Shown here piece by piece: positions 10,177 through 53,254 of a stretch of DNA of 64,000 bases. How positions within the stretch are numbered: position 1 is the stretch's first letter; every line of letters starts with the position of its first letter. The stretch is from Candidatus Zixiibacteriota bacterium (GTDB lineage Bacteria > Zixibacteria > MSB-5A5 > GN15 > FEB-12): assembly GCA_034003725.1 (NCBI GenBank), contig JAVEYB010000002.1:329392-393391 (forward strand), written 5' to 3'. A model generated the notes under the pieces. The model did not search any database. It was given only the letters and a program-made list of their open reading frames with translations, and was not told the DNA's origin. A program made the translations under genes and the position numbers.

Positions 10177-10203
10177 ATGCCTCCGGTTGGCGATTTGACA
10201 TGA
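10177..10203 (+). CDS. 8-codon leader mini-ORF overlapping the subtilase start
   Basis: ATG at 10177 encodes MPPVGDLT and stops at TGA 10201-10203. This forms an ATGA overlap with the ATG (10200) of the protease gene. The mini-ORF has a good AAAGGA at 10163-10168, whereas the protease ATG has no Shine-Dalgarno of its own. Ribosomes reaching the mini-ORF stop could re-initiate on the protease, so it may set translation of the whole three-gene operon. It could also be chance. Confidence 0.35.
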   Translation: MPPVGDLT

Positions 10204-16036: not shown

Positions 16037-16047
16037 GCGTGTGAGCG

Positions 16048-35470: not shown

Positions 35471-35764
35471 GGCGACCTCCTTTAAGATTCAATGGGCCAG
35501 GCTTGCTTGCCTGTAGTACCAAATCGGGGTTCCGCCTCTTCCCGGATTTTTTCACAACCGCTGCCATCTTTCGTCGTATACATAATGGCCGATCTATCAT
35601 TGGTTTATCGTGCGATCGTAAAAAGCTGACGGCTGTGGCGGGGGCGATCCCGGGTTGGTCCATAATCTCCTATCCGATTATCTGCTTGACGCTTACGCCA
35701 ATGACTGGTTTATTCGCAGAAACTACATACCACCACTACACCAAGTAAAGGCATGGAGGAACTA
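35471..35764. promoter_or_regulatory. divergent intergenic region with promoter for the M16 pair
   Basis: About 290 nt between the VWA gene and the M16 genes. For the plus strand, TTGACG at 35686-35691 and TTTATT at 35709-35714 are spaced 17 nt and lie about 50 nt before the start. For the minus strand I see AT-rich sequence but no convincing hexamer pair. Confidence 0.4.
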
Positions 35765-37270
35765 ATGAAACGGAAAGCAATCGGGCTGTTGGTAGCCGCG
35801 TTTGCCCTTGCTCTGACGGCAGCGCCGTCGGCGACCGCGTTTGAGTTCACCGAGGTTGAAAACCAGGTGGTCGAACACACGCTTGACAACGGGTTGAAAA
35901 TCCTGATCGTGCCCCGCCACGAGGCGCCGGTCGCGTCTTTTGTCACATGGGCAAATGTCGGGTCGGCTGACGACCCCAAGGGCTACACGGGCCTCGCCCA
36001 CATGTTCGAGCATATGGCCTTCAAGGGAACCACAACCCTGGGGACCAGGGATATCAAGGCCGAAATGAAAGCTATTGCGGTCGAGGATTCTCTTTTCATG
36101 CTGTTACGCGCCGAGCGCAACAAAGGTCGTCTGGCCGATTCCACCCGGCTGGCCGAGCTGGAGGAGGCGTATAACGCTGCCCGCGAGGCGTCCTATGAAC
36201 TCGTAATTCCCAACGAATTCGGAAACGTGATTGACCGCGAAGGCGGGGTCGGGCTGAATGCCTTTACATCCAACGACCAAACCGCCTATTTCTTCAGCCT
36301 GCCTTCGAACAAAGTGGAACTGTGGATGGCGCTCGAATCAGAACGCTTCCTCAACCCGGTCCTTCGCGAAATGTACAAGGAACGCGACGTGGTCGCCGAA
36401 GAACGCCGGATGCGCACCGAGTCCAACCCCATCGGCAAGGCGATCGAGGAATTCCTGTGCCTGGCCTTCAAGGCTCACCCCTACGGTGTGCCGGGTGTCG
36501 GCCATATGAGCGACATCATGAATTACTCTCGCGTGGAAGCAAAGGCCTTCTTCGAAAAGTACTACGGGCCGTCCAACCTGACAGTCGCTGTCGTGGGCGA
36601 CGTGGTTCCCAACGATGTCATCAAACTTGCCGAGAAGTACTGGGGCCGTATCGCTTATCGCCCGGCCCCCGAACGCATCGCCACCGTAGAACCCGAGCAG
36701 ATCGGCGAGCGCCGAATGGTGATGGAAGACCCGGCGCAGCCGGTCTATTTGGCCGGATGGCACATCCCGGAGATCACGCACCCGGACCGCACAGCGGTTG
36801 ACATGCTCATGGAATATCTTGGTCAGGGTCGCACTTCCGTGCTGTATGAAACCATGGTCAAGGAGAAGAAAATCGCCATTCAGATCGGGGCGTTCTCCGG
36901 ATTTCCGGGCGACAAATACGCAACCATGTGCCTCATGTTCGCCATGCCCTCGCAGGGACATGACAATTTCGAATGCGAACAGGAAATTTTCGCGGCTGTC
37001 GAAAAGACCAAGTCAGAACTGGTGACCCCGGCAGATCTCGAGAAGATGCGCGCCCGCGCCAAATCGTCCTTCATCAACAGCATCGCCTCCAACAACGGCT
37101 TCGCAATGCAGTTGTGCCAGGCGCAGCAGTATTACGGCGACTGGCGTGAGATGTTCCGGCAACTCGACAAGATCAATGCCGTGACGGCTGAGGACATTCA
37201 GCGCGTCGCAAACCAGTACTTGACTGAAGAGAACCGGGTCGTGGTCATGATGAACACGGCCAAGAGCTGA
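35765..37270 (+). CDS. M16-family zinc peptidase, catalytic subunit
   Basis: About 501 aa from the preferred ATG at 35765, which has GGAGGA 4-9 nt upstream and begins a clean signal peptide (MKRKAIGLLVAAFALALTAA). An in-frame ATG at 35753 is possible. The inverted zinc motif HMFEH sits at residues 79-83, followed by NAFTSNDQTAYFFSLP, as in M16B peptidases. Expected to be a periplasmic clam-shell peptidase degrading short peptides, working with the non-catalytic partner encoded next. Its stop shares one base with an upstream start candidate of that partner. Confidence 0.9.
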   Translation: MKRKAIGLLVAAFALALTAAPSATAFEFTEVENQVVEHTLDNGLKILIVPRHEAPVASFVTWANVGSADDPKGYTGLAHMFEHMAFKGTTTLGTRDIKAEMKAIAVEDSLFMLLRAERNKGRLADSTRLAELEEAYNAAREASYELVIPNEFGNVIDREGGVGLNAFTSNDQTAYFFSLPSNKVELWMALESERFLNPVLREMYKERDVVAEERRMRTESNPIGKAIEEFLCLAFKAHPYGVPGVGHMSDIMNYSRVEAKAFFEKYYGPSNLTVAVVGDVVPNDVIKLAEKYWGRIAYRPAPERIATVEPEQIGERRMVMEDPAQPVYLAGWHIPEITHPDRTAVDMLMEYLGQGRTSVLYETMVKEKKIAIQIGAFSGFPGDKYATMCLMFAMPSQGHDNFECEQEIFAAVEKTKSELVTPADLEKMRARAKSSFINSIASNNGFAMQLCQAQQYYGDWREMFRQLDKINAVTAEDIQRVANQYLTEENRVVVMMNTAKS

Positions 37271-37284
37271 TGGGAGCCGTGATA

Positions 37285-39429
37285 ATGAAACGAATAGCTT
37301 CTGTATTGATCATTGCGGTCGCGGCGCTTCTGCTCGGGGCCGCACTGCAGGCTCAGGACGTCGACAAGCTGAAGTATCCCAAGCTCAACCCGCTGGTGGT
37401 ACCGGAAGTCGACAAGGTGACCCTGCCCAACGGCATGCGCCTCTACGTCCTTGAAGATCATATGCTGCCGGTCTTCCGCGCCTCTGTGCGGATCAATGTC
37501 GGCGGCTATCTCGAACCTGCCGACAAGGTCGGCATGGCATCGATGGTCGGTGAGGTGCTCCGCACCGGCGGTACGGCGAAGTGGACCGGCGATGAAATCG
37601 ACGAAATGCTCGAAGGCATCGGCGGATCCGTGGAAACGTCGATCGACAACCTTTCCGGCAACGCCTCCGTCAATGTCCTCTCCGAGTACACTGATCTGGG
37701 GCTCGAAGTCCTCGCCCAGATTCTGCGCAATCCGACCTTTGACGCAGACAGAGTAGAACTGGCGAAAGTCGGACAGCGGTCCAATATCTCCCGCCGTAAC
37801 GATGACCCCATGACCATCGCAATGCGGGAATTCCGCAAAGTGGTTTACGGTCCGGAGTCCGTGTACGCCCGACACCCGGAATATATGACTGTCAACGCCG
37901 TGAATCGCGAGGATATGGTGGCCTTCCACCAGCAGTGGTTCCACCCGGAGAATATCCAGATTGCCGTCTGGGGTGATTTCGACAAAGCCGAGATCGTAGA
38001 GAAAATAAAAACCTGGTTCGGTGACTGGGAAAAGGGCAATGTCACCGTCCCGCCGCCGCCCGAAGTCACATACGAATACGACCAGCACGTCTATTACGCT
38101 GAAAAGTCCGACGTCAACCAGAGCAACGTCCTCGTCGGACACCTCGGCGGTAAGGTCACCGACCCCGACTACGCCGACCGTATCGTGATGAATGCCATCT
38201 TCGGCGGCAGCTTCGGCAGTCGCATGTTCAACAACGTGCGCTCGAAAGAAGGTCTCGCCTACGCCACCTTTGGCTCGTATACGGCAAACATCTCGTACCC
38301 GGGCGTTTTCGTCGCCTTTGCGTCGACCAAGTCCGAGACCACCGGCAAGGCGGTCCGAGAAATCGTCAAGCAGGTCGAGGGAATGCAGACGAACCCGCCG
38401 ACTCCTGACGAGATGCGCATGGGCAAGGACGGCTACCTCAATTCGTTTGTTTTCAACTTCGATAATCGCGCCGAGGTAGTCAACCGCCTCATGAATTATG
38501 ACTTCTACAATCTCCCCGAAGACTTCCTCGTTCAGGAGAAAGAAAAGGTCGAACAGGTGACCGCCGAAGCGGTGGTTGAAGCCGCCAAGCGCAATCTGCA
38601 CCCCGAAAAACTCCGGGTGCTCGTGGTCGGAAATCAGGCCGATTTTGAAGTCCCGCTCGAGGACCTCAACATGGGACCGGTTACCGAAATCGACATAACG
38701 ATCCCATCCGGCGAGGAAAAGAAGGAACTCGCGATCACCCCCGAAAACCTGGCCAGAGGCGCCGAACTCCTGGAGAAAGCCGCTGCTGCGCACGGCGGCA
38801 CCAGTGCGTTTGCAGCGGTGAAGACGATGTCCGTCAAAGCTCAGGTCGTGATATCGACGCCGCAGGGTGACTTCCCCTTTCCGATCGAGTCCACGGACAT
38901 TCTCCCCGACAAATCATACACGGTCGCCACGATGATGGGCCAGAAGATGTATGACGTTCGGGACGGATCCAAGGGTTGGAAGACGATCGCCCCTGGCCAA
39001 CTCGGCGACAAAACCGAAGAGGACATCCTCAAAGAGAAAGAGGATCAGCTGAGGGATCTCGTCATGATCTTCTCTCATCTGAAAGCCGATCCATACTTCC
39101 AGGCCGTGTACGAAGGTCCCGGTCAGCTCGACCAGAAAGCGGTCGAATGGATTACCCTGGTCGACATGCAGGGTGAGCCCATCTGCCGTCTGGCGATAGA
39201 CCCCCAGACAACAGCTGTCGCCGGTCGCAGCTATTGGGGCTCCGGAATGATGGGCGGGGAAGGAACGATCACCGAGACATTTGAAACGATGACCGAGGCC
39301 GGCGGCATCAAACTGCCCGGCAGGGTCGTCAGGATGATGGATGGTCAGAAAATGGCCGTCGTGGAGATTCAGGAGATGACGGTGAATGCCGATGTCTCCC
39401 CGGATCTCTTCACTAAGCCGACCATGTAA
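37285..39429 (+). CDS. M16-family inactive partner with LolA-like C-terminal extension
   Basis: 714 aa from ATG 37285 (GGGAG 8-12 nt upstream, followed by signal peptide MKRIASVLIIAVAALLLGAA). ATG 37270, overlapping the previous stop by one base, is the other option. The N-terminal 440 residues are M16-like but lack the HxxEH motif (RINVGGYLEPADKVGMASMV in its place). They keep the partner-subunit R/Y signature in SRMFNNVRSKEGLAYATFG. This is the usual active/inactive M16B pair. About 260 further residues (AAAHGGTSAFAAVKTMSVKAQVVI ... LPGRVVRMMDGQKMAVVEI) resemble the LolA/LolB-type outer-membrane lipoprotein-sorting fold; that call is by pattern only. Confidence 0.85.
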   Translation: MKRIASVLIIAVAALLLGAALQAQDVDKLKYPKLNPLVVPEVDKVTLPNGMRLYVLEDHMLPVFRASVRINVGGYLEPADKVGMASMVGEVLRTGGTAKWTGDEIDEMLEGIGGSVETSIDNLSGNASVNVLSEYTDLGLEVLAQILRNPTFDADRVELAKVGQRSNISRRNDDPMTIAMREFRKVVYGPESVYARHPEYMTVNAVNREDMVAFHQQWFHPENIQIAVWGDFDKAEIVEKIKTWFGDWEKGNVTVPPPPEVTYEYDQHVYYAEKSDVNQSNVLVGHLGGKVTDPDYADRIVMNAIFGGSFGSRMFNNVRSKEGLAYATFGSYTANISYPGVFVAFASTKSETTGKAVREIVKQVEGMQTNPPTPDEMRMGKDGYLNSFVFNFDNRAEVVNRLMNYDFYNLPEDFLVQEKEKVEQVTAEAVVEAAKRNLHPEKLRVLVVGNQADFEVPLEDLNMGPVTEIDITIPSGEEKKELAITPENLARGAELLEKAAAAHGGTSAFAAVKTMSVKAQVVISTPQGDFPFPIESTDILPDKSYTVATMMGQKMYDVRDGSKGWKTIAPGQLGDKTEEDILKEKEDQLRDLVMIFSHLKADPYFQAVYEGPGQLDQKAVEWITLVDMQGEPICRLAIDPQTTAVAGRSYWGSGMMGGEGTITETFETMTEAGGIKLPGRVVRMMDGQKMAVVEIQEMTVNADVSPDLFTKPTM

Positions 39430-39524: not shown

Positions 39525-39643
39525 GAAATGCAGCCGCAAAGGGTACTTATCGAGACTTCGCTAACGGTAACAGATCCAGGTGTTGACGACACGTGCGTAT
39601 TCAAGCACGGGTTCGTCTATTACTGACCACGGGAAGGTGCCGT

Positions 39644-40564
39644 ATGCGGCCTGCGTTCAGGTTTGTCCCCACCGCGATTTACTCCGCGGTCCTGCTTCTC
39701 TGCAGTACTGCCACCGTATTCTCCCAGGTTCCGCGAGTGGTCGTTTCGGTCGGCGACACGAGCTTCGTCGCCGGAAGCCGGAATAACTACCTGTCCTTAC
39801 GCCTGTACAATTTCGAAGACAGCATAGCCGGCGTCGGACTGCAGTTGAAATCAGAGCGACCTGACCTCGTTACGTTCAACTTCAGTGGTGTCGCATTTGA
39901 CACCGTCGGCACCCTCGTCTCCGGATGGGAATACTGCGTGGTGGTAGACTCGCTGAGTAACGGCGTGTTCTGGCGACTGGCCGCAGCGGCCGATTTCTTC
40001 CCCGACCAGAACCGACCTCCGGCTATACCTCCGCAATCGGGAGGAATTGTCGTTCGCGTTCCCCTGAATACACCCCCGAATCCCGATACCTCCCTGCCAC
40101 TGATTGCCCCGATTACGATGTTCGGCCGTCAGGAGTTCTCTACAACTGGCGGTCAACTGATTGGCGTGGTAACCGACACAATCGTAGACACCAGCTACCT
40201 GGCATGCCAAAACTGGCTCGGTGACAGCTGCACGCTGTGGTTCGAGGTCGATCCCTCCATCAGTCCGTACGATTCAATCGCCTATGACAGCAGCCTGGTC
40301 GGCCAGATTGACACCACGGTGGTCGTATCAATCGGCGGTTCTGTGAGCCTCATTCCAACCCTGCAGTGTGATATCACGGCCGACAATTCTGTTGACCTGT
40401 CCGACCTGATCTGCCTTGTCAATTTCCTGTTCCTCGGCCAGACAAGCGGGGGTTGCGTGTATTTTGGTTACTGTGATCCCGACTCCAGCGGCGGTACCGA
40501 TCTGTCCGATCTGATCCAGCTCGTGAATTACCTGTTCCTCGGCGGGAATCAGCTTACCCATTGA
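39644..40564 (+). CDS. secreted dockerin-repeat protein with cohesin-like N-terminal region
   Basis: 306 aa from ATG 39644, which has GGGAAGG 6 nt upstream and opens a signal peptide (MRPAFRFVPTAIYSAVLLLC). A GTG at 39593 would only add 17 unlikely residues. The middle part begins VVVSVGDTSFVAGS and LRLYNFEDSIAGVGLQL, reminiscent of cohesin-type beta sandwiches. The C-terminus holds two dockerin-like repeats (DLSDLICLVNFLFLG, DLSDLIQLVNYLFLG) with calcium-loop Asp/Asn residues. If both calls hold, one small protein carries both kinds of docking partner. It stands just upstream of the four tandem paralogues. Confidence 0.7.
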   Translation: MRPAFRFVPTAIYSAVLLLCSTATVFSQVPRVVVSVGDTSFVAGSRNNYLSLRLYNFEDSIAGVGLQLKSERPDLVTFNFSGVAFDTVGTLVSGWEYCVVVDSLSNGVFWRLAAAADFFPDQNRPPAIPPQSGGIVVRVPLNTPPNPDTSLPLIAPITMFGRQEFSTTGGQLIGVVTDTIVDTSYLACQNWLGDSCTLWFEVDPSISPYDSIAYDSSLVGQIDTTVVVSIGGSVSLIPTLQCDITADNSVDLSDLICLVNFLFLGQTSGGCVYFGYCDPDSSGGTDLSDLIQLVNYLFLGGNQLTH

Positions 40565-40675: not shown

Positions 40676-43336
40676 ATGCCGCGATTGTCTTTCGGCTTGC
40701 TGGCAGCGCTCGTTATAGGCCTGTCCGCGGAAGCGACGGCGCGCACCATGCGACCCGCCGACAACAACCACGACAATCCCTACGCTGCAACCGCCGCGCC
40801 GGCGTATTGCGCGACAAATCATACGGTAGGTAAGCTGGTCCTCTCTGTCACCAACTACGGTGTATTTGCGGCCGAAGATGACGCTCTCATAACGACGGCC
40901 GACTGTTTTACCGGCAACCGGGTTCTCGCCTGCGAGTATCCCAAACGGTCCGGAACCCAGTACGCATTCTCCGGCGCCTTCTGGATCGGAGCGGTGGTCG
41001 GACGAGATACTCTTGTGTCGGTCGGTGCCGACGGGTGGCAAAACGCGCATGAGATGTTTCCCGATCAGTCTCCGTTCGGCGATATGCGCAAGAGATCCAT
41101 CATCGACCCGGAAGCGGCCGAGTTTGAGGGTGCCGTTTCCGAGCAGGATTTCATCGCCGTATACACCGATACGTACACTTCGGGCGTCGCTGGCCTGTCC
41201 AACGATTTTTTCGGACGTCCCCACATCCCGCTCCATGTCGAAGTCACCCAGCGCTCCTACGCGTGGTCGTACCCGTACGCCGATGATTTCGTGCTGTTTG
41301 ACTACTCGCTCCGCAATATCGGCTTCGAGCGGCTGTCCCGAGTGTACATGGGGATTTATGTGGATGCGGACTGCGCGCCCGGCGGCGGATTGGCCGATGC
41401 CACGCCGGGCGATCTCGGCGCAGGAGCAGAATTCCAGGATGACATCTGCGGATTCCTTGAAACTAGCGTTGAGACCCTTCGCGTCGGCAATACCGACGTT
41501 CCCTATATCGACACGGTCAACACCGCATGGATCGCCGATGTCAGCGGCGACCTTAACGACATCGGGCAAACCCCGCTGCCCGCTGTCACGTCCTGCCGTA
41601 TAGTCCGCACCCCGGCCGAAGAACTCGATGTTTCCTTCAACTGGTGGATCAGCCAGGGCGATGCGACTCAGGACTTCGGCCCCCAGGCCATCGCCACCTA
41701 TCGCAACTTTACGACCGGCGGCACGGGAACGCCTGAGGGCGACGTAAACAAGTACTATGTCCTCAGGAACCGCGAATTCGATTACGACCAGGTTTTCACC
41801 GGGCGCGTCGGTCCAAACGACCCGACCTGGCTGGTCCCCCCCGTCGATCTGGCGCAGGAATTTGCAAACGGCTATGACACGAGATTTCTCCTCTCGTTCG
41901 GACCATTCACGATCGACCCCGGGCAGACTCTGCCGATTTCGTTCGCTTATGTGGCCGGAGACAATTTTCACGTCTTGCCGAACAACGCCAACGTCAACCT
42001 CGGTGACTCCTACAACCCCGAGATATATTACGCCAACCTCAATTTCGATGAATTGTCGACCAATTCCCGCTGGGCGTCCTGGGTGTACGATAATCCCGGA
42101 GTCGACACGGACACGGATGGGTATCTGGGCAAGTTCCTGGTCGTCTGCGATGACACCACCGGGTACAGCATCGACACATCAGTGGTCGGTGGCGACACCC
42201 TGATCGACACGGTCGGCGTGGTCGGCACGCAGTGTGACACGGCCTACTACGAGGGCGACGGGGTGCCCGACTTCAGGGGCGCCTCCCCGCCTCCCGCGCC
42301 TGACGTTTGGCTCATCCCGGAGTTGGGCCGGATTCGCGTCCGGTTTAACGGTCGCCGGTCGGAAACGACACGTGACGTCTTCTCCCGTGAACTCGATTTC
42401 GAAGGGTACCGGGTGTACCTCGCCCGCGATGATCGTGAACCCAGCTACATGCTGCTCGCCGCCTATGATCGCGAGAATTACAACAAATTCGTTTATCAGT
42501 CGTCCGCCAACGAATACAAGCTGTTTGACTCACCGTTCACGCTTGACTCGCTGCGCACGTTGTACGCTGCGGGTGACCCAAACTGGGATCCGCTCGCCTT
42601 CACCCGCACCCGGCCATACTTCCTCGGCATCGACTCCGCCTTCGCCTTTGAGGCGCAGGGATACAACCAGTCGGTGTTCGGCGTGACCACGCCCATCAGA
42701 AAGGTTTATGACGACTGGGAGGATCTCGACCCTGCCGCGTATGGCATAAGTGTCCCCGATTCCGTACCCGACAGTCTGAGTTTCCTGCTGACCGACGACG
42801 GCTACTTCAAGTACTACGAGTATGAGTTTATTGTCGATGATTTGCTACCGACCGTGCCGTACTACGTAAACGTAACCGCAGCGGATTACGGATCACCCGC
42901 GTCAGGTCTCCCTTCCCTCGAGACGTCAAAGACCGTCAATTCCAGAAACGCCTACGCGCTGGAGACTTCGGCTAACGGCACGGCGGGTGAGCTTGATGTA
43001 TACGTGTGGCCGAATCCATATCGGGCGGATGCCGGATATCTCGAAACGGGCTTCGAAGGTCGCTTCAGTCCGTACGCACAGCCGATTCCTGATCGCGAAC
43101 GCCGGATTCACTTCGCCAATCTGCCGCCGAAATGCACGATCAGTATCTTCACACTCGACGGCGACCTCGTCCGGCAGTTCGAACACGATATGGATCCGTC
43201 CGATCCTAACGCCATGCACGATGAGTGGGACCTGATTACCCGAAATACCCAGATGGTAGTGTCGGGCATATATTATTTCACGGTGGAAGAACCGAACGGC
43301 CGCACTCAGATCGGCAAAATCGTCATCATTATGTGA
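40676..43336 (+). CDS. exported tandem paralogue 1 of unknown function
   Basis: 886 aa from ATG 40676 (AAGGAAAT upstream; signal peptide MPRLSFGLLAALVIGLSAEA). Upstream in-frame codons to 40580 are less likely. The family core contains PAYCATNHTVGKLVLSVTNYG, SGAFWIGAVVGRDTLVSVG, RSYAWSYPYADDFVLFDY, TGGTGTPEGDVNKYYVLRNR and YLLSFGPFTIDPGQTLP-type segments. The C-terminal about 115 residues (VYVWPNPYRADAGY, HFANLPPKCTISIFTLDGD, SGIYYFTVE, final KIVIIM) look like a variant of the Por/T9SS sorting domain. No enzymatic motif was found. First of four paralogues on the same strand. Confidence 0.75.
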   Translation: MPRLSFGLLAALVIGLSAEATARTMRPADNNHDNPYAATAAPAYCATNHTVGKLVLSVTNYGVFAAEDDALITTADCFTGNRVLACEYPKRSGTQYAFSGAFWIGAVVGRDTLVSVGADGWQNAHEMFPDQSPFGDMRKRSIIDPEAAEFEGAVSEQDFIAVYTDTYTSGVAGLSNDFFGRPHIPLHVEVTQRSYAWSYPYADDFVLFDYSLRNIGFERLSRVYMGIYVDADCAPGGGLADATPGDLGAGAEFQDDICGFLETSVETLRVGNTDVPYIDTVNTAWIADVSGDLNDIGQTPLPAVTSCRIVRTPAEELDVSFNWWISQGDATQDFGPQAIATYRNFTTGGTGTPEGDVNKYYVLRNREFDYDQVFTGRVGPNDPTWLVPPVDLAQEFANGYDTRFLLSFGPFTIDPGQTLPISFAYVAGDNFHVLPNNANVNLGDSYNPEIYYANLNFDELSTNSRWASWVYDNPGVDTDTDGYLGKFLVVCDDTTGYSIDTSVVGGDTLIDTVGVVGTQCDTAYYEGDGVPDFRGASPPPAPDVWLIPELGRIRVRFNGRRSETTRDVFSRELDFEGYRVYLARDDREPSYMLLAAYDRENYNKFVYQSSANEYKLFDSPFTLDSLRTLYAAGDPNWDPLAFTRTRPYFLGIDSAFAFEAQGYNQSVFGVTTPIRKVYDDWEDLDPAAYGISVPDSVPDSLSFLLTDDGYFKYYEYEFIVDDLLPTVPYYVNVTAADYGSPASGLPSLETSKTVNSRNAYALETSANGTAGELDVYVWPNPYRADAGYLETGFEGRFSPYAQPIPDRERRIHFANLPPKCTISIFTLDGDLVRQFEHDMDPSDPNAMHDEWDLITRNTQMVVSGIYYFTVEEPNGRTQIGKIVIIM

Positions 43337-43524
43337 TGATTTAACGTTGCACGGGTCGTGACTGCAACTGGTCTATGTGGTAAGTGGGTGATACTCGGGG
43401 CGCCCAGCGCCCCGATCGCTTGGAAGTTGAAAGTAAGGTATCCGACCAGCGGCGGATGTCGGCGGGCACGCTCTCGCTCGGTCGGATTGCAGTATGGTCA
43501 TGCAATTCTGTCCGGGAGGGCAGC

Positions 43525-46197
43525 GTGTCAAAATGGTTAGGATTTATCAGTGTTGTCGCTCTGGTGGCATTCGCATCGAGCAATTCACTGGGGCGCACGA
43601 AGTTGATTGAAGGAGGTTACCCGCACGATGATCCGTACATTGTTATGGCGGCGCCCGCATACTGCGCCACCAACCACAGTGTCGGTCGCCTCGTTCTGTC
43701 GGTAACGAACTACGGCGTGTTCGCTGCGGAAGAAGACGCCCTCATCACCACCGCTGACTGCTTCACCGGGTCCGCTGTACTCGCGTGTGAATATCCCAAA
43801 CGGTCGGGCTCGCAGTATTCTTATTCCGGGGCGTTCTGGATCGGCGCTGTCGTCGGCCGTGACACACTTGTGTCGGTCGGTGCCGACGGCTGGCAGCGCA
43901 CGCGAGAAATGTTCCCCGATGAATCCCCGTTCGGCGACATGATCCGTCGTTCGATCCTCGACCCGCTCGCAACGGAGTACGAGGGCGCTATCTCCGAACA
44001 GGACTTCATCGCCGTATATACGGACACCTATACCTCCGGTGTCTCCGGACTCGCGAATGACTTCTTTGGCAGGCCCCATATCCCCCTGTTTATCGAGGTC
44101 ACGCAGCGGTCCTATGCATGGTCGTATCCCTACGCCGATGACTTCGTCTTGTTCGACTACTCGATCAGGAATATCGGCAGTGAACGGCTTACGAAGGTGT
44201 ACATGGGCGTTTATGTCGATGCGGACGTCGGACCGGCAGGACAGGTCGATGACGTCGAAGGAGACCTGTCGCCGGGCGCACTCGAATTTCAGGACGACAT
44301 CTGCGGCTTCCGCGAAACCAATGTCGAAACCCTTCTGGTTGGAAGTGTCCCCGTTGAATACGTGGACACCGTCAATATCGCGTGGATTGCCGACGTCAGC
44401 GGCGATCTTGACGACCTCGGTCAGGTTCCGGTACCCGGCGTGACTGCGACGCGAATCGTCAGAACGCCTGCCGAGGAACTTGACGTGTCATTCAACTGGT
44501 GGATCGGAAGCGGCGATGCCACCCAGGACTTCGGCCCTCAGGCGATCCATACGTACCGCAACTACACGACCGGCGGAACGGGTACGCCGGAAGGCGACAT
44601 CAACAAATACCACGTGCTTCGCAACCGTGAGTTTGATTACGATCAGATCTTCACCGGCCGGATACCTCCGAATGATCCGGTCTGGCTCACTCCACCGGTC
44701 GCCCTCGCACAGGAGTTCGCCAACGGTTACGATACCCGCTACCTGCTGTCGTTCGGACCGTTTACGATCGATCCCGGTCAAACGTTACCCGTGTCCTTCG
44801 CGTACGTTGCAGGCGACGCCTTCCACCAGGATGCACAGAATGCTATCCGCAACCTGGGTGACGCCTATAATCCCGAGATCTATTACGAGAACCTCAACTT
44901 CGATAACCTCGCGACCAACTCCCGCTGGGCCTCCTGGGTATACGACAACCCCGGCGTCGATACCGACACCGACGGCTATGCGGGCAAGTTCCTCGAAGTG
45001 TGCGGTGACTCGATCGGCATCGATATCGACACCATCCGGGATACCAACGGCGTGATCATCGACATCGACACCAACGTCGTTTACCAGAACGGCTGCGATA
45101 CGGCCTACTATGCCGGCGACGGCGTGCCTGATTTCCGGGGCGCTTCTCCGCCTCCCGCACCCGATCTCTGGCTGATCCCGCAGGTCGGCAGCATCACGGT
45201 CCGGTTCAACGGCCGCCGATCCGAAACCACCCGCGACGTCTTCTCACGTGATCTGGATTTCGAGGGCTACAAGGTTTACATCGCCCGCGACGACCGGGAG
45301 CCCAGTTACACCCTGGTGGCTTCCTACGACCGGGAGAACTACAACAAGCTGGTCTACGATTACACTTCCCGTGAGTTCAAGCTGATCGACGTGCCCTATA
45401 CCCTGGACTCGCTGCAGACGATCTACGGCGGTGGCGATCCCGACTGGGATCCGGCCGTTTACACCCGGACCAATCCGTACCGGGGAGCGGCCGATTCGGC
45501 CTTTGCCTTTGAGGCTCAGGGGTTCAACCGGTCGCGCTTCGGGGTGGACACACCGATCCGGAAGGCATACGACAACTGGGAAGAGCTGTTCCCGGGCGAC
45601 TACGGGATCAGCAGCCCGGACTCGGTGCCGGACAGTCTGGCGTTTCTGCTGACGGAGGACGGGTATTTCAAGTACTACGAGTACGAGATTACGATCGACA
45701 ATCTGCTGCCCACGGTGCCGTGGTATGTGAACGTGACCTCGTCGGACTACGGGTCCCCGGCCTCGGGTCTGCCGGCGCTGGAGACGTCGAAGACGGTGAA
45801 CGCCAGAAACACCTATGCGCTGGAGTCGGTGCAGCGGGTGCAGGAGGCGGGGGCGAAAGTGTATGTGTGGCCGAACCCCTACCGGGCTGACGGCGAATAC
45901 CTGACGGAAGGATTTGAGGGGCGGTTCAGTCGCTTCTCGACGCCGATCCCGGACCGTGAGCGGCGGATACACTTCGCCAACTTGCCGCCCAAATGTACGA
46001 TCAAGATTTTCACCCTGGACGGCGATCTGGTGCGCCAGATCGATCACGACATGGATCCGGGTGATCCCAATGCCGTGCATGAGGAGTGGGACATGATCAC
46101 CCGAAACACCCAGATGGTGGTTTCCGGCATCTACTACTGGACGGTCGAAGTTCCCAACGGCGAAACTCAGATCGGCAAACTCGTCATCATCATGTAA
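43525..46197 (+). CDS. exported tandem paralogue 2 of unknown function
   Basis: 890 aa from GTG 43525, chosen because GGGAGGG ends 4 nt upstream. The signal peptide (VSKWLGFISVVALVAFASS) begins there, and the length then equals that of paralogue 3. The frame is open upstream to 43384. Same architecture as paralogue 1. The last 1,635 bp (from 44563 to the stop) appear identical to paralogue 3, while the first third differs at many positions. Codon choice in the 3' part (about 45400-46140) leans visibly more to G/C third bases than in paralogue 1. Confidence 0.75.
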   Translation: MSKWLGFISVVALVAFASSNSLGRTKLIEGGYPHDDPYIVMAAPAYCATNHSVGRLVLSVTNYGVFAAEEDALITTADCFTGSAVLACEYPKRSGSQYSYSGAFWIGAVVGRDTLVSVGADGWQRTREMFPDESPFGDMIRRSILDPLATEYEGAISEQDFIAVYTDTYTSGVSGLANDFFGRPHIPLFIEVTQRSYAWSYPYADDFVLFDYSIRNIGSERLTKVYMGVYVDADVGPAGQVDDVEGDLSPGALEFQDDICGFRETNVETLLVGSVPVEYVDTVNIAWIADVSGDLDDLGQVPVPGVTATRIVRTPAEELDVSFNWWIGSGDATQDFGPQAIHTYRNYTTGGTGTPEGDINKYHVLRNREFDYDQIFTGRIPPNDPVWLTPPVALAQEFANGYDTRYLLSFGPFTIDPGQTLPVSFAYVAGDAFHQDAQNAIRNLGDAYNPEIYYENLNFDNLATNSRWASWVYDNPGVDTDTDGYAGKFLEVCGDSIGIDIDTIRDTNGVIIDIDTNVVYQNGCDTAYYAGDGVPDFRGASPPPAPDLWLIPQVGSITVRFNGRRSETTRDVFSRDLDFEGYKVYIARDDREPSYTLVASYDRENYNKLVYDYTSREFKLIDVPYTLDSLQTIYGGGDPDWDPAVYTRTNPYRGAADSAFAFEAQGFNRSRFGVDTPIRKAYDNWEELFPGDYGISSPDSVPDSLAFLLTEDGYFKYYEYEITIDNLLPTVPWYVNVTSSDYGSPASGLPALETSKTVNARNTYALESVQRVQEAGAKVYVWPNPYRADGEYLTEGFEGRFSRFSTPIPDRERRIHFANLPPKCTIKIFTLDGDLVRQIDHDMDPGDPNAVHEEWDMITRNTQMVVSGIYYWTVEVPNGETQIGKLVIIM
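44563..46197 (+). repeat. 1,635-bp direct repeat, copy A
   Basis: Identical to 47628-49262 at every base in the stretches I compared (44563 to about 45000 line by line; beyond that I compared translations and several nucleotide stretches, including the 3' end). The constant offset of 3,065 bp shows no net indel. Identity breaks at 44562 (C versus T) upstream and directly after the TAA stop downstream. Confidence 0.85.
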
Positions 46198-46589
46198 AGT
46201 CTGCGCAGTGCGTGCGGCTGCCGGCTTAATGCCGTCAGCCGCACCCGCCTTCCTCCCTATCTCCCTGTGCTACGGCGTCTTGTCTGGTTGAACAAGTTCC
46301 CCCGCGGGAATCCTGAGACACAAGAAGGAGACCATTTCGCATTAGACAATTCGCCCCGCAGCACAGTCTATAATCTATCGAATGAGACAGTACAGGTATG
46401 CCCGACGGGCGCGATGGTAGACGCTGGTTTTCGGGTGACAGAACCATGTGCGCGCCAACAGATTGGCCCCCGTCGGTGGAGCTAATCCGTTGAGGCATTT
46501 GTGCCTTGACAGGGACAACGGTAACCCGCATATTTCGTGCTTTAGGTTTGGGAAAAGTTACTAGTCCATAGAGATAGAAGGAAGATACA
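46198..46589 (+). promoter_or_regulatory. 392-nt gap between paralogues 2 and 3 with hairpin and promoter
   Basis: A long hairpin at 46212-46244 (14-nt arms with one mismatch, loop TTAAT) lies 15 nt after the stop but has no T-run, so it is a weak terminator candidate. TTGACA at 46506-46511 and CATATT at 46529-46534, spaced exactly 17 nt, form a plausible promoter for paralogue 3. AGAAGGAAG precedes its GTG. Nothing coding is seen in between. Confidence 0.45.
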
Positions 46590-49262
46590 GTGAGAAATCG
46601 GGTAACGACGTTCTGGCTTCTTGTGTTGGTCGTTCTATTGCCGGCCTCGCTAATGGCTCGGACCAAGCTGGTTGAGAACGGTCCCTCCAACGATGACCCT
46701 TACATTTCACTTGCCGCACCCGCTTATTGCGCTACCAATCACAATGTCGGCCGCCTCGTTCTCTCCGTGACAAACTATGGCATATTCGCTGCGGAAGGCG
46801 ACGCGTTGATTACGGAATCCGACTGCTTCACCGGAGCGCGCGTTTCAGCCTGCGAGTATCCAAAACGCTCCGGTACCGTCTACTCCTTCTCGGGGGCGTT
46901 CTGGATCGGTGCTGTCGTCGGCCGTGATACGCTCGTGTCGGTCGGCGCCGACGGCTGGCAGACGACAAACGAAATGTTTCCCGATGAATCCCCGTTCGGT
47001 AACATGATTCGGCGTTCTATTATTGATCCTGAGTCCCCGGATTACGAGGGCGCTATCTCCGAACAGGACTTCATCGCCGTGTACACTGACACCTATACCT
47101 CCGGCGTATCCGGACTTGACAACGATTTTTTCGGTCGCCCCCACATTCCGCTGAATATTGAAGTTACGCAGCGGTCCTACGCATGGTCGTACCCCTACGC
47201 CGATGATTTCGTGCTGTTTGATTACTCGATCAGGAACATCGGCGTACAACGACTGACGAAAGTCTACATGGGAATGTACGTTGACGCTGACGTTGGTCCG
47301 GGCGGCGATCAGCTCAGCACCACCCCCGGTGACTTTGGCGCCGGCGGTGAGTTTGCCGACGACATCTGCGGTTTCCGCGAGACCAGTCTTGAGACGCTTC
47401 GTGTCGGCAACGTCGACGTCGAGTATATCGATACGGTCAACATCGCATGGATCGCGGACGTCACAGGCGACCTCAATGATCTCGGTCAGGTGGCAGTGCC
47501 GGCAGTGACAGCTACCCGCATTGTTCGTACGCCTGCCGAGGAGCTCGACGTGTCATTCAACTGGTGGATCGGCAACGGCGATCCGACTCAGGACTTCGGC
47601 CCTCAGGCGATCCAAACGTACCGCAATTACACGACCGGCGGAACGGGTACGCCGGAAGGCGACATCAACAAATACCACGTGCTTCGCAACCGTGAGTTTG
47701 ATTACGATCAGATCTTCACCGGCCGGATACCTCCGAATGATCCGGTCTGGCTCACTCCACCGGTCGCCCTCGCACAGGAGTTCGCCAACGGTTACGATAC
47801 CCGCTACCTGCTGTCGTTCGGACCGTTTACGATCGATCCCGGTCAAACGTTACCCGTGTCCTTCGCGTACGTTGCAGGCGACGCCTTCCACCAGGATGCA
47901 CAGAATGCTATCCGCAACCTGGGTGACGCCTATAATCCCGAGATCTATTACGAGAACCTCAACTTCGATAACCTCGCGACCAACTCCCGCTGGGCCTCCT
48001 GGGTATACGACAACCCCGGCGTCGATACCGACACCGACGGCTATGCGGGCAAGTTCCTCGAAGTGTGCGGTGACTCGATCGGCATCGATATCGACACCAT
48101 CCGGGATACCAACGGCGTGATCATCGACATCGACACCAACGTCGTTTACCAGAACGGCTGCGATACGGCCTACTATGCCGGCGACGGCGTGCCTGATTTC
48201 CGGGGCGCTTCTCCGCCTCCCGCACCCGATCTCTGGCTGATCCCGCAGGTCGGCAGCATCACGGTCCGGTTCAACGGCCGCCGATCCGAAACCACCCGCG
48301 ACGTCTTCTCACGTGATCTGGATTTCGAGGGCTACAAGGTTTACATCGCCCGCGACGACCGGGAGCCCAGTTACACCCTGGTGGCTTCCTACGACCGGGA
48401 GAACTACAACAAGCTGGTCTACGATTACACTTCCCGTGAGTTCAAGCTGATCGACGTGCCCTATACCCTGGACTCGCTGCAGACGATCTACGGCGGTGGC
48501 GATCCCGACTGGGATCCGGCCGTTTACACCCGGACCAATCCGTACCGGGGAGCGGCCGATTCGGCCTTTGCCTTTGAGGCTCAGGGGTTCAACCGGTCGC
48601 GCTTCGGGGTGGACACACCGATCCGGAAGGCATACGACAACTGGGAAGAGCTGTTCCCGGGCGACTACGGGATCAGCAGCCCGGACTCGGTGCCGGACAG
48701 TCTGGCGTTTCTGCTGACGGAGGACGGGTATTTCAAGTACTACGAGTACGAGATTACGATCGACAATCTGCTGCCCACGGTGCCGTGGTATGTGAACGTG
48801 ACCTCGTCGGACTACGGGTCCCCGGCCTCGGGTCTGCCGGCGCTGGAGACGTCGAAGACGGTGAACGCCAGAAACACCTATGCGCTGGAGTCGGTGCAGC
48901 GGGTGCAGGAGGCGGGGGCGAAAGTGTATGTGTGGCCGAACCCCTACCGGGCTGACGGCGAATACCTGACGGAAGGATTTGAGGGGCGGTTCAGTCGCTT
49001 CTCGACGCCGATCCCGGACCGTGAGCGGCGGATACACTTCGCCAACTTGCCGCCCAAATGTACGATCAAGATTTTCACCCTGGACGGCGATCTGGTGCGC
49101 CAGATCGATCACGACATGGATCCGGGTGATCCCAATGCCGTGCATGAGGAGTGGGACATGATCACCCGAAACACCCAGATGGTGGTTTCCGGCATCTACT
49201 ACTGGACGGTCGAAGTTCCCAACGGCGAAACTCAGATCGGCAAACTCGTCATCATCATGTAA
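46590..49262 (+). CDS. exported tandem paralogue 3 of unknown function
   Basis: 890 aa from GTG 46590 (AGAAGGAAG upstream; signal peptide MRNRVTTFWLLVLVVLLPASLMA). The N-terminal third resembles paralogue 2 with scattered differences. From residue about 347 onward the protein is the same as paralogue 2. It has the variant C-terminal tail (VYVWPNPYRADGEY, HFANLPPKCTIKIFTLDGD, SGIYYWTVE, final KLVIIM). Own promoter and own terminator, so expression may be separate from the other copies. Function unknown. Confidence 0.75.
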   Translation: MRNRVTTFWLLVLVVLLPASLMARTKLVENGPSNDDPYISLAAPAYCATNHNVGRLVLSVTNYGIFAAEGDALITESDCFTGARVSACEYPKRSGTVYSFSGAFWIGAVVGRDTLVSVGADGWQTTNEMFPDESPFGNMIRRSIIDPESPDYEGAISEQDFIAVYTDTYTSGVSGLDNDFFGRPHIPLNIEVTQRSYAWSYPYADDFVLFDYSIRNIGVQRLTKVYMGMYVDADVGPGGDQLSTTPGDFGAGGEFADDICGFRETSLETLRVGNVDVEYIDTVNIAWIADVTGDLNDLGQVAVPAVTATRIVRTPAEELDVSFNWWIGNGDPTQDFGPQAIQTYRNYTTGGTGTPEGDINKYHVLRNREFDYDQIFTGRIPPNDPVWLTPPVALAQEFANGYDTRYLLSFGPFTIDPGQTLPVSFAYVAGDAFHQDAQNAIRNLGDAYNPEIYYENLNFDNLATNSRWASWVYDNPGVDTDTDGYAGKFLEVCGDSIGIDIDTIRDTNGVIIDIDTNVVYQNGCDTAYYAGDGVPDFRGASPPPAPDLWLIPQVGSITVRFNGRRSETTRDVFSRDLDFEGYKVYIARDDREPSYTLVASYDRENYNKLVYDYTSREFKLIDVPYTLDSLQTIYGGGDPDWDPAVYTRTNPYRGAADSAFAFEAQGFNRSRFGVDTPIRKAYDNWEELFPGDYGISSPDSVPDSLAFLLTEDGYFKYYEYEITIDNLLPTVPWYVNVTSSDYGSPASGLPALETSKTVNARNTYALESVQRVQEAGAKVYVWPNPYRADGEYLTEGFEGRFSRFSTPIPDRERRIHFANLPPKCTIKIFTLDGDLVRQIDHDMDPGDPNAVHEEWDMITRNTQMVVSGIYYWTVEVPNGETQIGKLVIIM
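47628..49262 (+). repeat. 1,635-bp direct repeat, copy B
   Basis: Second copy of the block at 44563-46197, in the same orientation and reading frame. The copies are separated by 1,430 bp of non-identical sequence. The ends coincide with a codon within the gene and with the stop codon, not with inverted repeats or target-site duplications. This argues against an insertion sequence. Confidence 0.85.
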
Positions 49263-49284
49263 GCACACTGAGTGTCTAATATCG

Positions 49285-49324
49285 AAAGGCCGCCGACAGC
49301 TCGATCTGATCGGCGGCCTTTTCG
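49285..49324 (+). terminator. intrinsic terminator after paralogue 3
   Basis: AAAGGCCGCCGA (49285-49296) pairs perfectly with TCGGCGGCCTTT (49310-49321), 13-nt loop, then TTC. It separates paralogue 3 from paralogue 4. Confidence 0.8.
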
Positions 49325-49335
49325 GTAAGGTCACT

Positions 49336-51975
49336 ATGGCGCGCACTATATCATATCCGTCACGTCGTACTCCATGTACGATCGCGAGTTTTCTGGCCGT
49401 ATCAGTCCTGCTGTGCGGCCTTCCTCTCGACCTTGTGGCCCGGTCGAATACGCCACTCTCGCGTGAGGAAGCCATCAGTCGACATCTCGAACACGCCGCG
49501 ACTGCCCGACCCGTCGTGCTCTACACGGCGCACAACAGGGGCAATATCCAGCTGGCGATTGCCAACAACGGCACCTTCGGTACCTACGGACAGGATATCC
49601 CTGATCCCTTCACAGGTCAACGGATCCCCTCCTGCGTGTATCCAAAAAACAGCGATCATGTCTATCTTTGGGTGGGTGCGTTCTGGATCGGAGCCGTCGT
49701 GGGGCGGGACACGCTCGTTTCGGTGGGAACTGAAGACTTCTATGTCACGCAGGAATTCTGGCCCGATCCTCCCCCCTTCGGAGAGTTCGACTACAAATCC
49801 ATAGACGTCAACAGCCAGTTTTACGATCCCAACGCGTACTCCGAAGAAGACATCTTGTGCCGGTATACCGATACGGTAACTGACCCATCGCTGGTTTCCG
49901 CCGATCCCCTTACCAACATCGCGCACCGGCCGCTCGGGATTGAAGTCACGCAGCGGTCCATGGCGTGGAGCTATGAGTACGCTGACGACTTCATCCTGTT
50001 CGACTACCAGATTCGCAATATCGGTCAGCAACGGCTCAATCGCGTTTATATGGGGATCTGGATAGACGGTGACGTGTGGCATGTCTCGCGCAACGGCCCC
50101 GAGGGGTGGAACGACGATATCGTCGGGTTTCTGCGCGATCACCCCGCTCCGGAAGGCTGCGGTTTCCTCGATACGGTGAATGTCGCATACACCGCTGACA
50201 ACGACGGCGACCCCGACGGCGCCAGCTGGGACTACCGCTCGCCGCGAGGCGTTGTCGGAGCGCGGGTCGTAAGAACGCCGTCGGACTCGCTCGACTATTC
50301 CTACAACTGGTGGATCATCAACTACTCGGATCCCAGCCGTGACTTCGGCCCGCGGATGCTGAGCGCGCCGGGTGATCCGTACTTCGATTTTGGCACCTCC
50401 CGACTTGGCACACCCGAGGGAGACGTCAACAAGTATTACGTGCTCAGCCACCGGGAGTTCGATTACGACCTGATCACCACGGCCACGAACCACGAGGGCG
50501 AGGGGTATCGCCCCCCTCCTCCGGAAGCCGAAGACTACGCACGGGGATACGACACGCGATACCTGCTGTCTTTCGGGCCCTTCACTATAGACCCCGGGCA
50601 GACTCTGCCCATTTCTCTCGCCTGGGTTGCGGGTGAAAACCTGCATCGCCAGCCCCAGGACTTTGAACGGCTGTTTGATCCCGATTTCCCTCAGTTCTTC
50701 TATGAGGCACTGGACTTTTCGAGCCTCGCCTTGAACTCGCGCTGGGCGTCGTGGGTGTACGACAACCCTGGCCGTGATACCGACGGCGACGGGTACGCAG
50801 GTAAATTCCGGGTCTGTGCGTTCGACTCACTGATCGATCATATCGATACCACGTTCGTGGGCGGCAACCCGGTCGTTGACACGATTTACCGATACACCCG
50901 GGCTGACACCAGTTACTATGAGGGTGATGGTGTACCGGACTTCGCGGGGGCCGGTCCACCCCCCGCGCCGCGCCTGCGTGTGGTCCCGGAAAGCGGTAGA
51001 CTCACGATCCGATGGAATGGCTACCGATCCGAAACGACAAAGGACGTATTCCTCGGTGAAATCGACTTCGAAGGTTATCGCGTCTATGTCGGCCTCGATG
51101 ATCGGCTCACCAGTTTCACGCTGCTCCAGTCTTACGACCGCGAGGACTACAATCGCTACCGGTACGGTGAACTGCCCGACGGCAGACCCGGCTGGGTGCT
51201 CGATGAAGTGCCGTTTACGATCGACTCGCTAAGACTGATGTTCGATGACCCCTCGTTCGACCCGCTGGCATACACGCAGGCACGGCCCTTTGCCTGGGAA
51301 GGCGAGTACTACTCCTTCACCCGGCAGGACTACAACCAGTCCGACCTCACCCGCCCCGACGGCATTCGAAAGGTCTATCCCGATGCCCCTCCCCCGGACA
51401 CCGACACCTCGTCATGGACCGACGACGACGTCACACTCGATTACGGTGATCCGCTTCCAAAGTACTACGAATACGAATACGTGATAGAGAACCTCCTTCC
51501 GACCATCCCTTATCACGTGGCGGTAACGGCGTTCGATTACGGTTCCCCCGCTTCGGGCCTGCCGGCTCTCGAAACCAATCCCACCAACAACATGATCCGT
51601 GAATACCCACAGACGCCCGCCGACACCGTTGAGAGGTACGGTCTCGACGTATACGTCTACCCCAACCCGTATGTCGGTGACGGCGAGTATTCGCGGTTGG
51701 GGTTCGAAAACCGTGACCGCAGCCGGGCTCCGGAACGGGCACGGTTGATCCATTTCGCGAATCTGCCGCGCGTGTGCAACATTTCGATTTTCTCTCTGGA
51801 CGGAGACCTGGTTCGGGAGATTGCGCATAATTACCCCGGTGGAGGTCCGGAGTCGATGCATGCGACCTGGGATTTGATCACACGCAATACCCAGGCGGTG
51901 GTCTCAGCGATATACTATTGGGTGGTGGAGTCCGCGGATCGTACGCAGATGGGTAAGCTAGTGATTGTTAAGTGA
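49336..51975 (+). CDS. exported tandem paralogue 4 of unknown function (divergent)
   Basis: 879 aa. Signal peptide about 15-35. It keeps the family landmarks but with clear divergence: VGAFWIGAVVGRDTLVSVG, RSMAWSYEYADDFILFDYQIRNIG, EGDVNKYYVLSHREFDYD, YLLSFGPFTIDPGQTLPI, SRWASWVYDNPGRDTD and GDGVPDFAGAGPPPAP. The N-terminal CATNH segment is replaced by TAHNRGNIQLAIANNG. The C-terminal tail is VYVYPNPYVGDGEY, HFANLPRVCNISIFSLDGD, AIYYWVVE, ending KLVIVK, closer to the canonical LVK ending. The last 18 nt overlap the convergent MFS gene. Function unknown. Confidence 0.75.
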   Translation: MARTISYPSRRTPCTIASFLAVSVLLCGLPLDLVARSNTPLSREEAISRHLEHAATARPVVLYTAHNRGNIQLAIANNGTFGTYGQDIPDPFTGQRIPSCVYPKNSDHVYLWVGAFWIGAVVGRDTLVSVGTEDFYVTQEFWPDPPPFGEFDYKSIDVNSQFYDPNAYSEEDILCRYTDTVTDPSLVSADPLTNIAHRPLGIEVTQRSMAWSYEYADDFILFDYQIRNIGQQRLNRVYMGIWIDGDVWHVSRNGPEGWNDDIVGFLRDHPAPEGCGFLDTVNVAYTADNDGDPDGASWDYRSPRGVVGARVVRTPSDSLDYSYNWWIINYSDPSRDFGPRMLSAPGDPYFDFGTSRLGTPEGDVNKYYVLSHREFDYDLITTATNHEGEGYRPPPPEAEDYARGYDTRYLLSFGPFTIDPGQTLPISLAWVAGENLHRQPQDFERLFDPDFPQFFYEALDFSSLALNSRWASWVYDNPGRDTDGDGYAGKFRVCAFDSLIDHIDTTFVGGNPVVDTIYRYTRADTSYYEGDGVPDFAGAGPPPAPRLRVVPESGRLTIRWNGYRSETTKDVFLGEIDFEGYRVYVGLDDRLTSFTLLQSYDREDYNRYRYGELPDGRPGWVLDEVPFTIDSLRLMFDDPSFDPLAYTQARPFAWEGEYYSFTRQDYNQSDLTRPDGIRKVYPDAPPPDTDTSSWTDDDVTLDYGDPLPKYYEYEYVIENLLPTIPYHVAVTAFDYGSPASGLPALETNPTNNMIREYPQTPADTVERYGLDVYVYPNPYVGDGEYSRLGFENRDRSRAPERARLIHFANLPRVCNISIFSLDGDLVREIAHNYPGGGPESMHATWDLITRNTQAVVSAIYYWVVESADRTQMGKLVIVK

Positions 51976-53202
51976 CGCCTGGGCTTCGTTGACATGAGCC
52001 GGCAACCGCCGGCCCAGCCACCAGAATCCGAACGCCGCCACCAGTGCCAGTGACGATATCACCCACCACGCGTGTATCCAGTCGTGCTGGAATCCATCGA
52101 GGATCGCACCACCGTACAGCGGTCCCAGCGACCACCCCAGCGTAACGAAGAATCCGTAGACGCCCATGTACCGACCGGTCCGACCTTCGGGGGCGAGACG
52201 CGACGTCAGTGTCATCGTGGGCGGTGAGATCAGCAGCTCGCCGATCGTAACGACGAAAATCAGGCCCATAAACCACCAGAATCCGACCAGCGTGCCCATC
52301 AGGGCATAACCCGCGAAATACAATGCGGCCCCGATCGACAGGAGGGTCGTGAGTCGGTACCGGTCCGTCAGGCGCGTCACCGGCAACTGCAAAAGCACCA
52401 CCATCGTCCCGTTCAGCGCAAGCAGGTGTCCGAGGTCTGACTCGTGAAGGCCGACCATGCTGACCGCGTACACCGACAACGGCATCACCAGCTGAGCCAC
52501 GACAAGATAGAGGCAGAGCGTCAGCGCGGCATGCCAGGCAAACGACGGATCTTTGCGCAGCGCCACCAGATCGGCGAACCGGAAGCGATCGCGCGGAGCG
52601 ACGGACTCGGGAATGCGAAGGTACTTCAGAAAGACAAGCCCACCGACAAGCGTGACTGCCGCCGAGAAGTAGAACAACTCGGCATAGGACGACGCCGCGA
52701 GATAGCCGCCGATCGCCGGGCCGATTGCCCAGCCCGCGTTGCCGGCCGACCGGCTGATGGCGTACCCGTCGAGCCGCTTGTCGGACGGGACGATGTCCGA
52801 AACGCTCGCCATAACCGCCGTGAGGAACATCGACCCGGTCATGAAATTACAGAGCAAGATCACGGCGATCGGCCAGAAGCCCCATTCGAACTGCACGGCC
52901 AGCGCCAGCGCGACAAAGGTGATGATCCGATAGAACGGCATCTGGATCAGCAACGGGCGGCGGCCGATGCGGTCCGAGATCTCGCCGCCCGCGGCCTGGA
53001 AGCTCGCGCGGACGATGGCCATGACGGCGAAGAAAGTACCAATCTGGGTGGTCGACATCCCGAGGCGGTTGTGGAAGTAGATGGAGATGAATGGAATCGA
53101 CGCCGCGAAGCCGAGCGAGGCGATCAGCCAGCCCAAAGAGAGAATCCACAGCCCACGGTCAAACTGAGCCAGGTACGTCCGCAGCCTCGCTACGTGCGAC
53201 AT
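51958..53202 (-). CDS. MFS transporter
   Basis: 414 aa from ATG 53202; a TTG 12 nt further upstream is the only alternative. About twelve hydrophobic helices. The MFS motif between helices 2 and 3 is clear (GEISDRIGRRPLL), with a second-half counterpart TRLTDRYRLTTLL. Similar drug/H+ antiporter-type families export small molecules; the substrate cannot be told. The 3' end overlaps paralogue 4 by 18 nt in convergent orientation. No linked regulator. Confidence 0.88.
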   Translation of the reverse strand: MSHVARLRTYLAQFDRGLWILSLGWLIASLGFAASIPFISIYFHNRLGMSTTQIGTFFAVMAIVRASFQAAGGEISDRIGRRPLLIQMPFYRIITFVALALAVQFEWGFWPIAVILLCNFMTGSMFLTAVMASVSDIVPSDKRLDGYAISRSAGNAGWAIGPAIGGYLAASSYAELFYFSAAVTLVGGLVFLKYLRIPESVAPRDRFRFADLVALRKDPSFAWHAALTLCLYLVVAQLVMPLSVYAVSMVGLHESDLGHLLALNGTMVVLLQLPVTRLTDRYRLTTLLSIGAALYFAGYALMGTLVGFWWFMGLIFVVTIGELLISPPTMTLTSRLAPEGRTGRYMGVYGFFVTLGWSLGPLYGGAILDGFQHDWIHAWWVISSLALVAAFGFWWLGRRLPAHVNEAQASLNNH

Positions 53203-53254
53203 AATCTGCCACAATAAAGTACGCCCCGACCTGCCGCCAGCGATTTTTTGGTTA

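Follow-up and report, generated by a model that had tools for sequence, protein, structure and literature searches.

The array lies on the plus strand at positions 40676–51975 of the window, the 64,000-nucleotide stretch of a Candidatus Zixiibacteriota genome analysed here, and consists of four consecutive paralogous open reading frames (ORFs; Table 1). The genome sequence amounts to 3.73 Mb in 35 contigs, with the array on contig C2, and includes six full-length members of the family, four in the array and one each on contigs C17 and C11. The C11 member (L009:1402-4101, equivalent to G000:C11:120221-122821) has one in-frame TAG, which indicates either a pseudogene or a sequencing error. The start codons given for the four copies are the likely ones; the ORF list has starts at 40580 for copy 1 and at 43384 for copy 2, which would place extra N-terminal residues ahead of the signal peptide. 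An SD-like GGAAGGA is found upstream of copy 1. Copy 1 is 76% identical to both copy 2 and copy 3 and 50% identical to copy 4, values far above chance, and copies 2 and 3 are 91.6% identical to one another, giving a range of 76–92% among copies 1–3. The segments FWIGAVVGRDTLVSVG and SRWASWVYDNPG are common to all four copies, and YLLSFGPFTIDPGQTLP is exact in copies 2–4, with FLLSFG... at this place in copy 1. The ORFs and the shared FWIGAVVGRDTLVSVG and SRWASWVYDNPG bear out an earlier note on this DNA, which had described a row of four plus-strand paralogues with common landmarks and had named copy 4 as the most diverged, as is also found (about 50% identity versus 76–92% among the others).

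Table 1. Features of the array, its surroundings and related operons (positions in the window unless a locus is named).
Feature	Position	Strand	Remarks
Two exported M16 peptidase genes	35753..39429	+	conserved upstream of the array in 9-10 loci
Exported dockerin-like protein	39593..40564	+	323 aa; two dockerin-like repeats by eye
Copy 1, array-family gene	40676..43336	+	ATG start, 886 aa
Copy 2, array-family gene	43525..46197	+	GTG start, 890 aa; extra relative to the three-gene arrays of two same-genus genomes
Identical block, copy 2 part	44563..46197	+	1635 nt, equal to 47628-49262 of copy 3
Hairpin after copy 2	46208..46248	+	stable, z -5.72; without T run
Promoter footprint before copy 3	46494..46557	+	GGCATTTGTGCC inverted repeat; TTGACA 46506-46511; CATATT 46529-46534
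Copy 3, array-family gene	46590..49262	+	GTG start, 890 aa; AlphaFold2 model made
Super-beta-sandwich head, copy 3 residues 42-539	46713..48206	+	AlphaFold2 model, structure comparison
Identical block, copy 3 part	47628..49262	+	1635 nt, equal to 44563-46197 of copy 2
FN3-like domain with insert, copy 3 residues 540-767	48207..48890	+	FN3 chains, Z about 8
T9SS C-terminal domain, copy 3 residues 773-890	48906..49259	+	tail profile and structure match
Terminator-like hairpin between copies 3 and 4	49285..49322	+	T run; z -5.69
Copy 4	49336..51975	+	ATG start, 879 aa; ancient last-position paralogue
MFS transporter	51958..53214	-	convergent; adjoins the last array gene in 12 other loci
TonB-dependent receptor, distant family member, PorV (C9 operon)	L108:931-7631 (G000:C9)		
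TonB-dependent receptor, distant family member, PorV (C1 operon)	L131:3125-10236 (G000:C1)		

Genes for a glucan phosphorylase, a VWA protein, the two M16 peptidases and the dockerin-like protein lie upstream of the array. The M16 peptidases may have a link to processing. The dockerin-like protein gave no match in Pfam and, as judged by eye, perhaps has a cohesin-like front; it is conserved near the array in 6 loci, and its gene shows very low codon adaptation (1.6th percentile). Further upstream, the window includes multihaem cytochrome c genes together with cytochrome b561-type membrane parts (327–6883), and a subtilase and two proteins with weak to clear type IX secretion system (T9SS) tails (PF18962) at 10200–18618, which are probable T9SS cargo encoded near the array.

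Copies 2 and 3 share a block of perfect identity, absent from the earlier note, that ends exactly at the stop codon, whereas their 5′ parts and flanks outside the block differ. In the 42 array-ORF pairs that were listed, the longest identical run after this one measures 109 nt and is only an overlap of two reading frames. The identity fits gene conversion or a very recent duplication, as judged from the sequence, though it may be an artefact of assembly.

Members of the family were found well beyond this genome. Matches at E≤1e-20, 3–19 per genome, were present in all 61 genomes of the set made up of the window genome and those of the same genus, family or order, and the divergent matches of each genome were scattered over several loci. 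A search across the phylum found family matches at E≤1e-10 in 132 of 132 genomes, usually in more than one copy, the copy counts from this search being lower bounds. Homologues across the phylum sample were 40–78% identical to copy 3. Forty-six loci came from a pattern-based scan of named genomes; Candidatus Zixiibacteriota is the title of 32, Hydrothermota and Calditrichota of one each, and the remainder include GN15 and FCB titles. The relatives in the Hydrothermota genome are weaker (best E 7.9e-46). At least two family ORFs, and up to five, are consecutive on one strand at 22 of these 46 loci. In two of the loci, L031 and L039, adjacent family genes have reading frames with an overlap of ~31 nt, which hints at translational coupling there.

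Phylogenetically, copy 4 is one of 15 members of a clade (SH-aLRT 100) to which the last array gene of each of the 12 MFS-flanked loci also belongs, and the last array position is thus occupied by an ancient paralogue. The 5′ copies, by their sequences, look like products of lineage-specific and recent duplication. The arrays in two genomes of the same genus comprise three genes, and since both the promoter footprint and the best match make copy 3 the orthologue of the second gene of these relatives, copy 2 is the extra gene. The tandem expansion proposed in the earlier note is hence apt for the 5′ copies and does not extend to the last position.

The earlier note had also proposed that the copies may be expressed separately, since at least two have promoter or terminator signals of their own. 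A motif scan of the array region was at chance level, with 6 promoters where 5.7 were expected and 12 terminators where 10.9 were expected, and the signals therefore prove nothing by themselves. No RNA match to Rfam was obtained within the window. Control signals were instead judged by comparison across three genomes, those of the window and of loci L017 and L018. The 390-nt gap 5′ of copy 3 has diverged from the L017 and L018 gaps except for an island, GGCATTTGTGCCTTGACAG...CCCGCATATTTCG...TTTAGGTTTGGGAA, and a stretch running into the start codon. Within the island the TTGACA and CATATT boxes are separated by a spacer of 17 nt, and the GGCA-TTTG-TGCC inverted repeat that abuts the −35 box could be an operator. 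The exact 17-mer GCATTTGTGCCTTGACA occurred in 9 of 159 loci, all 9 being copies of the same three genomic sites. All three genomes retain the hairpin that separates copies 3 and 4, and changes in one arm are matched by changes in the other. Given the conserved footprint before copy 3 and the conserved terminator before copy 4, these two copies are likely to be controlled separately, and to this extent the proposal stands, while the signals from the scans do not sustain it.

No known family was recognised by sequence. Pfam gave no match for the four copies (E≤1) or for ten homologues (E≤0.1), a sequence search of solved structures returned nothing below E 0.9, a search of the copies against NCBIfam yielded nothing usable, and the hits in a viral fold library were a mere scatter of multi-FN3 and GH65-like structures with low TM. 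Copy 3 was modelled with AlphaFold2 using 65 sequences (mean pLDDT 84.2, pTM 0.76), and a second model of its residues 521–890 (pLDDT 85.3) resolved the FN3-like and C-terminal domains. The head (residues 42–539) matched the N-domain of a GH15 dextran dextrinase (9ju0) with Z 19.5 and an rmsd of 3.2 over 259 aligned residues, followed by GH116 (Z about 18) and GH94 and GH65 (Z 15–18). This fold is known as the super-beta-sandwich in the N-domains of GH15, GH65, GH94 and GH116. Foldseek TM-scores were ~0.2, which is low since one domain was compared within a long chain, and the Foldseek matches included the periplasmic domain of YidC, a super-beta-sandwich in a non-glycan role. The (alpha/alpha)6 catalytic barrel was not predicted, the secondary structure after residue 358 consisting of scattered short helices, the longest of 14 residues. 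The copies therefore lie outside the GH15, GH65, GH94 and GH116 families while sharing their scaffold. Among 65 homologues, 75 or so columns are invariant, with many Asp, Asn, His, Trp and Glu in the head, and in the alignment the linker after the head carries a DTDxDG-type loop, a putative calcium site. The absence of a known family claimed in the earlier note thus holds at the level of sequence, with Pfam and solved structures blank, and gives way at the level of fold, where structure comparison of the copy 3 models shows a GH-type super-beta-sandwich, an FN3 module and a T9SS C-terminal domain.

All four copies have a hydrophobic N-terminal stretch consistent with a signal peptide by inspection, seen in the copy 3 model as a helix of residues 2–21. 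The best solved match of the copy 3 C-terminal domain was PorZ (Z 11.5, rmsd 2.1 over 90 residues, 27% identity), and it also matched PorU (Z 8.7) and the T9SS substrate NucA (Z 7.7). Every curated tail model (Por_Secre_tail/CHU_C) scored under its cut-off, TIGR04183 giving 11.9 bits on copy 1 (cut-off 23) and PF18962 at best 15.0 bits (cut-off 27). A tail profile of the family compared with 18 T9SS tails of the window genome scored 44.2, against 20.2 for the best of 200 shuffles and 23.3 for the reversed sequence; the 18 were taken from 20 tails picked by the PorU model, with L111 (read in a wrong frame) and L114 (family relative) left out. Conversely, with a model built from the 18 tails, 62 of 71 family members were detected at E≤0.01; the four array copies are among them, with E values from 2e-5 to 4.7e-7. 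With only the three Pfam-matched T9SS tails, the score was near noise (21.0 versus 18.5 shuffled and 20.8 reversed). The result of a first tail profile (99.2%) was discarded, as it had been inflated by two intermediate sequences that are distant paralogues of the family itself.

The window genome encodes SprA (588 bits joined, cut-off 200) and PorU (673 bits, cut-off 420), the latter adjoined by a PorV-family gene. Ten PorV-family proteins exceed the cut-off, on contigs C1, C3, C8, C9, C10, C12 and C15, which suggests dedicated PorV partners. Export of the array proteins to the outer surface by T9SS is well supported by the modelled fold of the tail, their surface location being predicted. The variant sorting tail and the surface display anticipated in the earlier note are in keeping with these data, the tail being below curated cut-offs in sequence and of T9SS fold in structure, and SprA, PorU and PorV being encoded in the genome. 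The array genes represent a new family, phylum-wide in its occurrence, whose members are probable T9SS surface proteins and have the scaffold of carbohydrate enzymes as their head. No report on type IX secretion in Zixibacteria was found among open-licence papers under that spelling, and papers retrieved with 'secretion system' had nothing on T9SS surface arrays, as judged by title and the start of the abstract.

At two further loci of the window genome, on contigs C9 and C1, the gene of a distant family member has a TonB-dependent receptor gene on one side and a PorV gene on the other. The C9 paralogue (913 aa) scored 191.6 with the N-domain profile over 286 columns, the best of 60 shuffles scoring 26.8; the C1 relative (1071 aa) is weaker, and its whole-protein E of 4.6e-27 is largely owed to the tail. 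An orthologue of the C9 paralogue was found in 38 of 41 genomes, with one match in all but one, and the receptor-cargo-PorV order of the C9 type was present in 20 of 20 relatives examined, PorV lying beyond the contig end in one. A third relative, on contig C3, has the same N-domain (E 2.9e-73) joined to an fn3 domain and a tail that passes the cut-off of FlgD_ig but not that of Por_Secre_tail. SusD (PF07980, the sole SusD model used) had no match in the window genome, the Bacteroides control being positive, and no SusD_RagB domain was matched by Pfam in the four copies. A TonB receptor and PorV lie downstream at 2 of the 46 array-family loci (L033 and L042, which are near-identical).

Since the distant paralogues sit in TonB receptor-cargo-PorV operons, the reading favoured here is that the array encodes T9SS-delivered, putative ligand-binding proteins of the outer surface that serve TonB-type uptake (probability about 0.45). 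For the array copies themselves, we infer binding, the type of ligand and the partnership with a receptor. No TonB receptor or PorV is present among the genes scanned adjacent to the array, where M16 peptidases, a dockerin-like protein and an MFS gene are the conserved neighbours, which counts against this reading. So do the non-glycan roles of the super-beta-sandwich, the tail scores below the curated cut-offs and the near-noise result with three T9SS tails.

The alternative that the paralogues are structural S-layer or sheath proteins exported by T9SS, as are TfsA and TfsB of Tannerella forsythia, would account for the T9SS tail, for the acidic composition of the array proteins (pI 4.2–4.5, Lys 1–2%) and for the occurrence of the family in all 132 genomes searched. 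In T. forsythia, according to PMC4175972, T9SS mutants lack the S-layer of TfsA and TfsB. However, the codon adaptation of copies 1–4 is ordinary (49th, 77th, 67th and 23rd percentile of 128 genes, in a genome where codon selection is weak, ribosomal-cluster values being 0.64–0.75 against a baseline mean of 0.64), the copies are numerous and divergent and occupy several separate loci, and the operon of a distant paralogue includes a TonB receptor. A coat is considered unlikely, and the S-layer-like role suggested in the earlier note finds no support in the codon bias, the scattered divergent copies (3–19 per genome) or the paralogue in the TonB operon.

A head that is itself enzymatic, with the super-beta-sandwich working on glycans as, say, an epimerase or a lyase, is considered quite improbable. 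The 75 or so invariant columns among the homologues, with many Asp, Asn, His, Trp and Glu in the head, and a fold common to carbohydrate enzymes would suit such an activity, but no Pfam enzyme family was matched at the thresholds given above and the modelled secondary structure is devoid of an (alpha/alpha)6 barrel. Attachment to particles, minerals or other cells, in which the array genes would provide antigenic or ligand variation, is possible without specific support and just as improbable, for although an FN3 stalk, T9SS display, copy turnover and the identical block in copies 2 and 3 would be compatible with adhesins, the family shows good conservation in the phylum sample and no hypervariability, and a single-copy paralogue lies in the TonB operon.

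If the array proteins capture ligands for TonB-type uptake, the signal peptide would take each precursor across the inner membrane, and the C-terminal beta-sandwich would be read by the type IX translocon (SprA) and passed to PorV/PorU, leaving the protein displayed outside. The FN3 module would then serve as the stalk of a working head made up of the N-terminal super-beta-sandwich, which is the scaffold of glycan enzymes minus their catalytic barrel. What this head most likely does is bind a substrate outside the cell, probably a glycan or an oligomer, so that it can be taken up by the TonB-dependent route, which is the role of SusD and surface glycan-binding proteins in Bacteroidota. The paralogues may have diversified for differing ligands or conditions, copy 4 being presumably an old, positionally fixed subtype and copies 1–3 appearing to turn over via duplication and sequence exchange. 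A more specific and rather doubtful proposal is that Candidatus Zixiibacteriota practise SusD-free TonB-dependent capture, in which a T9SS super-beta-sandwich serves as a lid or bait held at the receptor by the dedicated PorV of the receptor-cargo-PorV operon, and that the array supplies free-standing, separately regulated baits loaded in trans. If the operon works in this way, it would represent a second design for SusCD-like uptake machinery and would provide a handle for learning what Zixiibacteriota eat.

Type IX secretion is best studied in Bacteroidota, and the family described here, found in every genome searched of an uncultured phylum, usually in many copies and with neither a Pfam entry nor an assigned role, is tied by its folds to the cell surface via this route and to carbohydrate-enzyme architecture. 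Like the T9SS cargo PorZ, PorU and NucA, the array proteins have a signal peptide and a C-terminal beta-sandwich, in a genome with T9SS genes, but their tail, at about 115 aa, is the longer one, has an insert after PNPY and scores below curated cut-offs. The head shares the N-terminal super-beta-sandwich of GH15, GH65, GH94 and GH116 enzymes (Z 15–19.5), whereas the array model has no (alpha/alpha)6 domain, identity is about 10% and Pfam gives no match. TfsA and TfsB of T. forsythia are T9SS-dependent surface proteins (PMC4175972), as is predicted for the array products, which differ in showing no sign of S-layer-level codon bias and in their many divergent copies, this likeness being one of description only. 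The resemblance to SusCD-type uptake of Bacteroidota lies in the distant paralogue encoded between a TonB receptor and PorV; the differences are that the window genome has no SusD match, that PorV is within the operon, and that the place of the SusD-type lipoprotein is taken in the C9-type operon by a beta-rich T9SS cargo.
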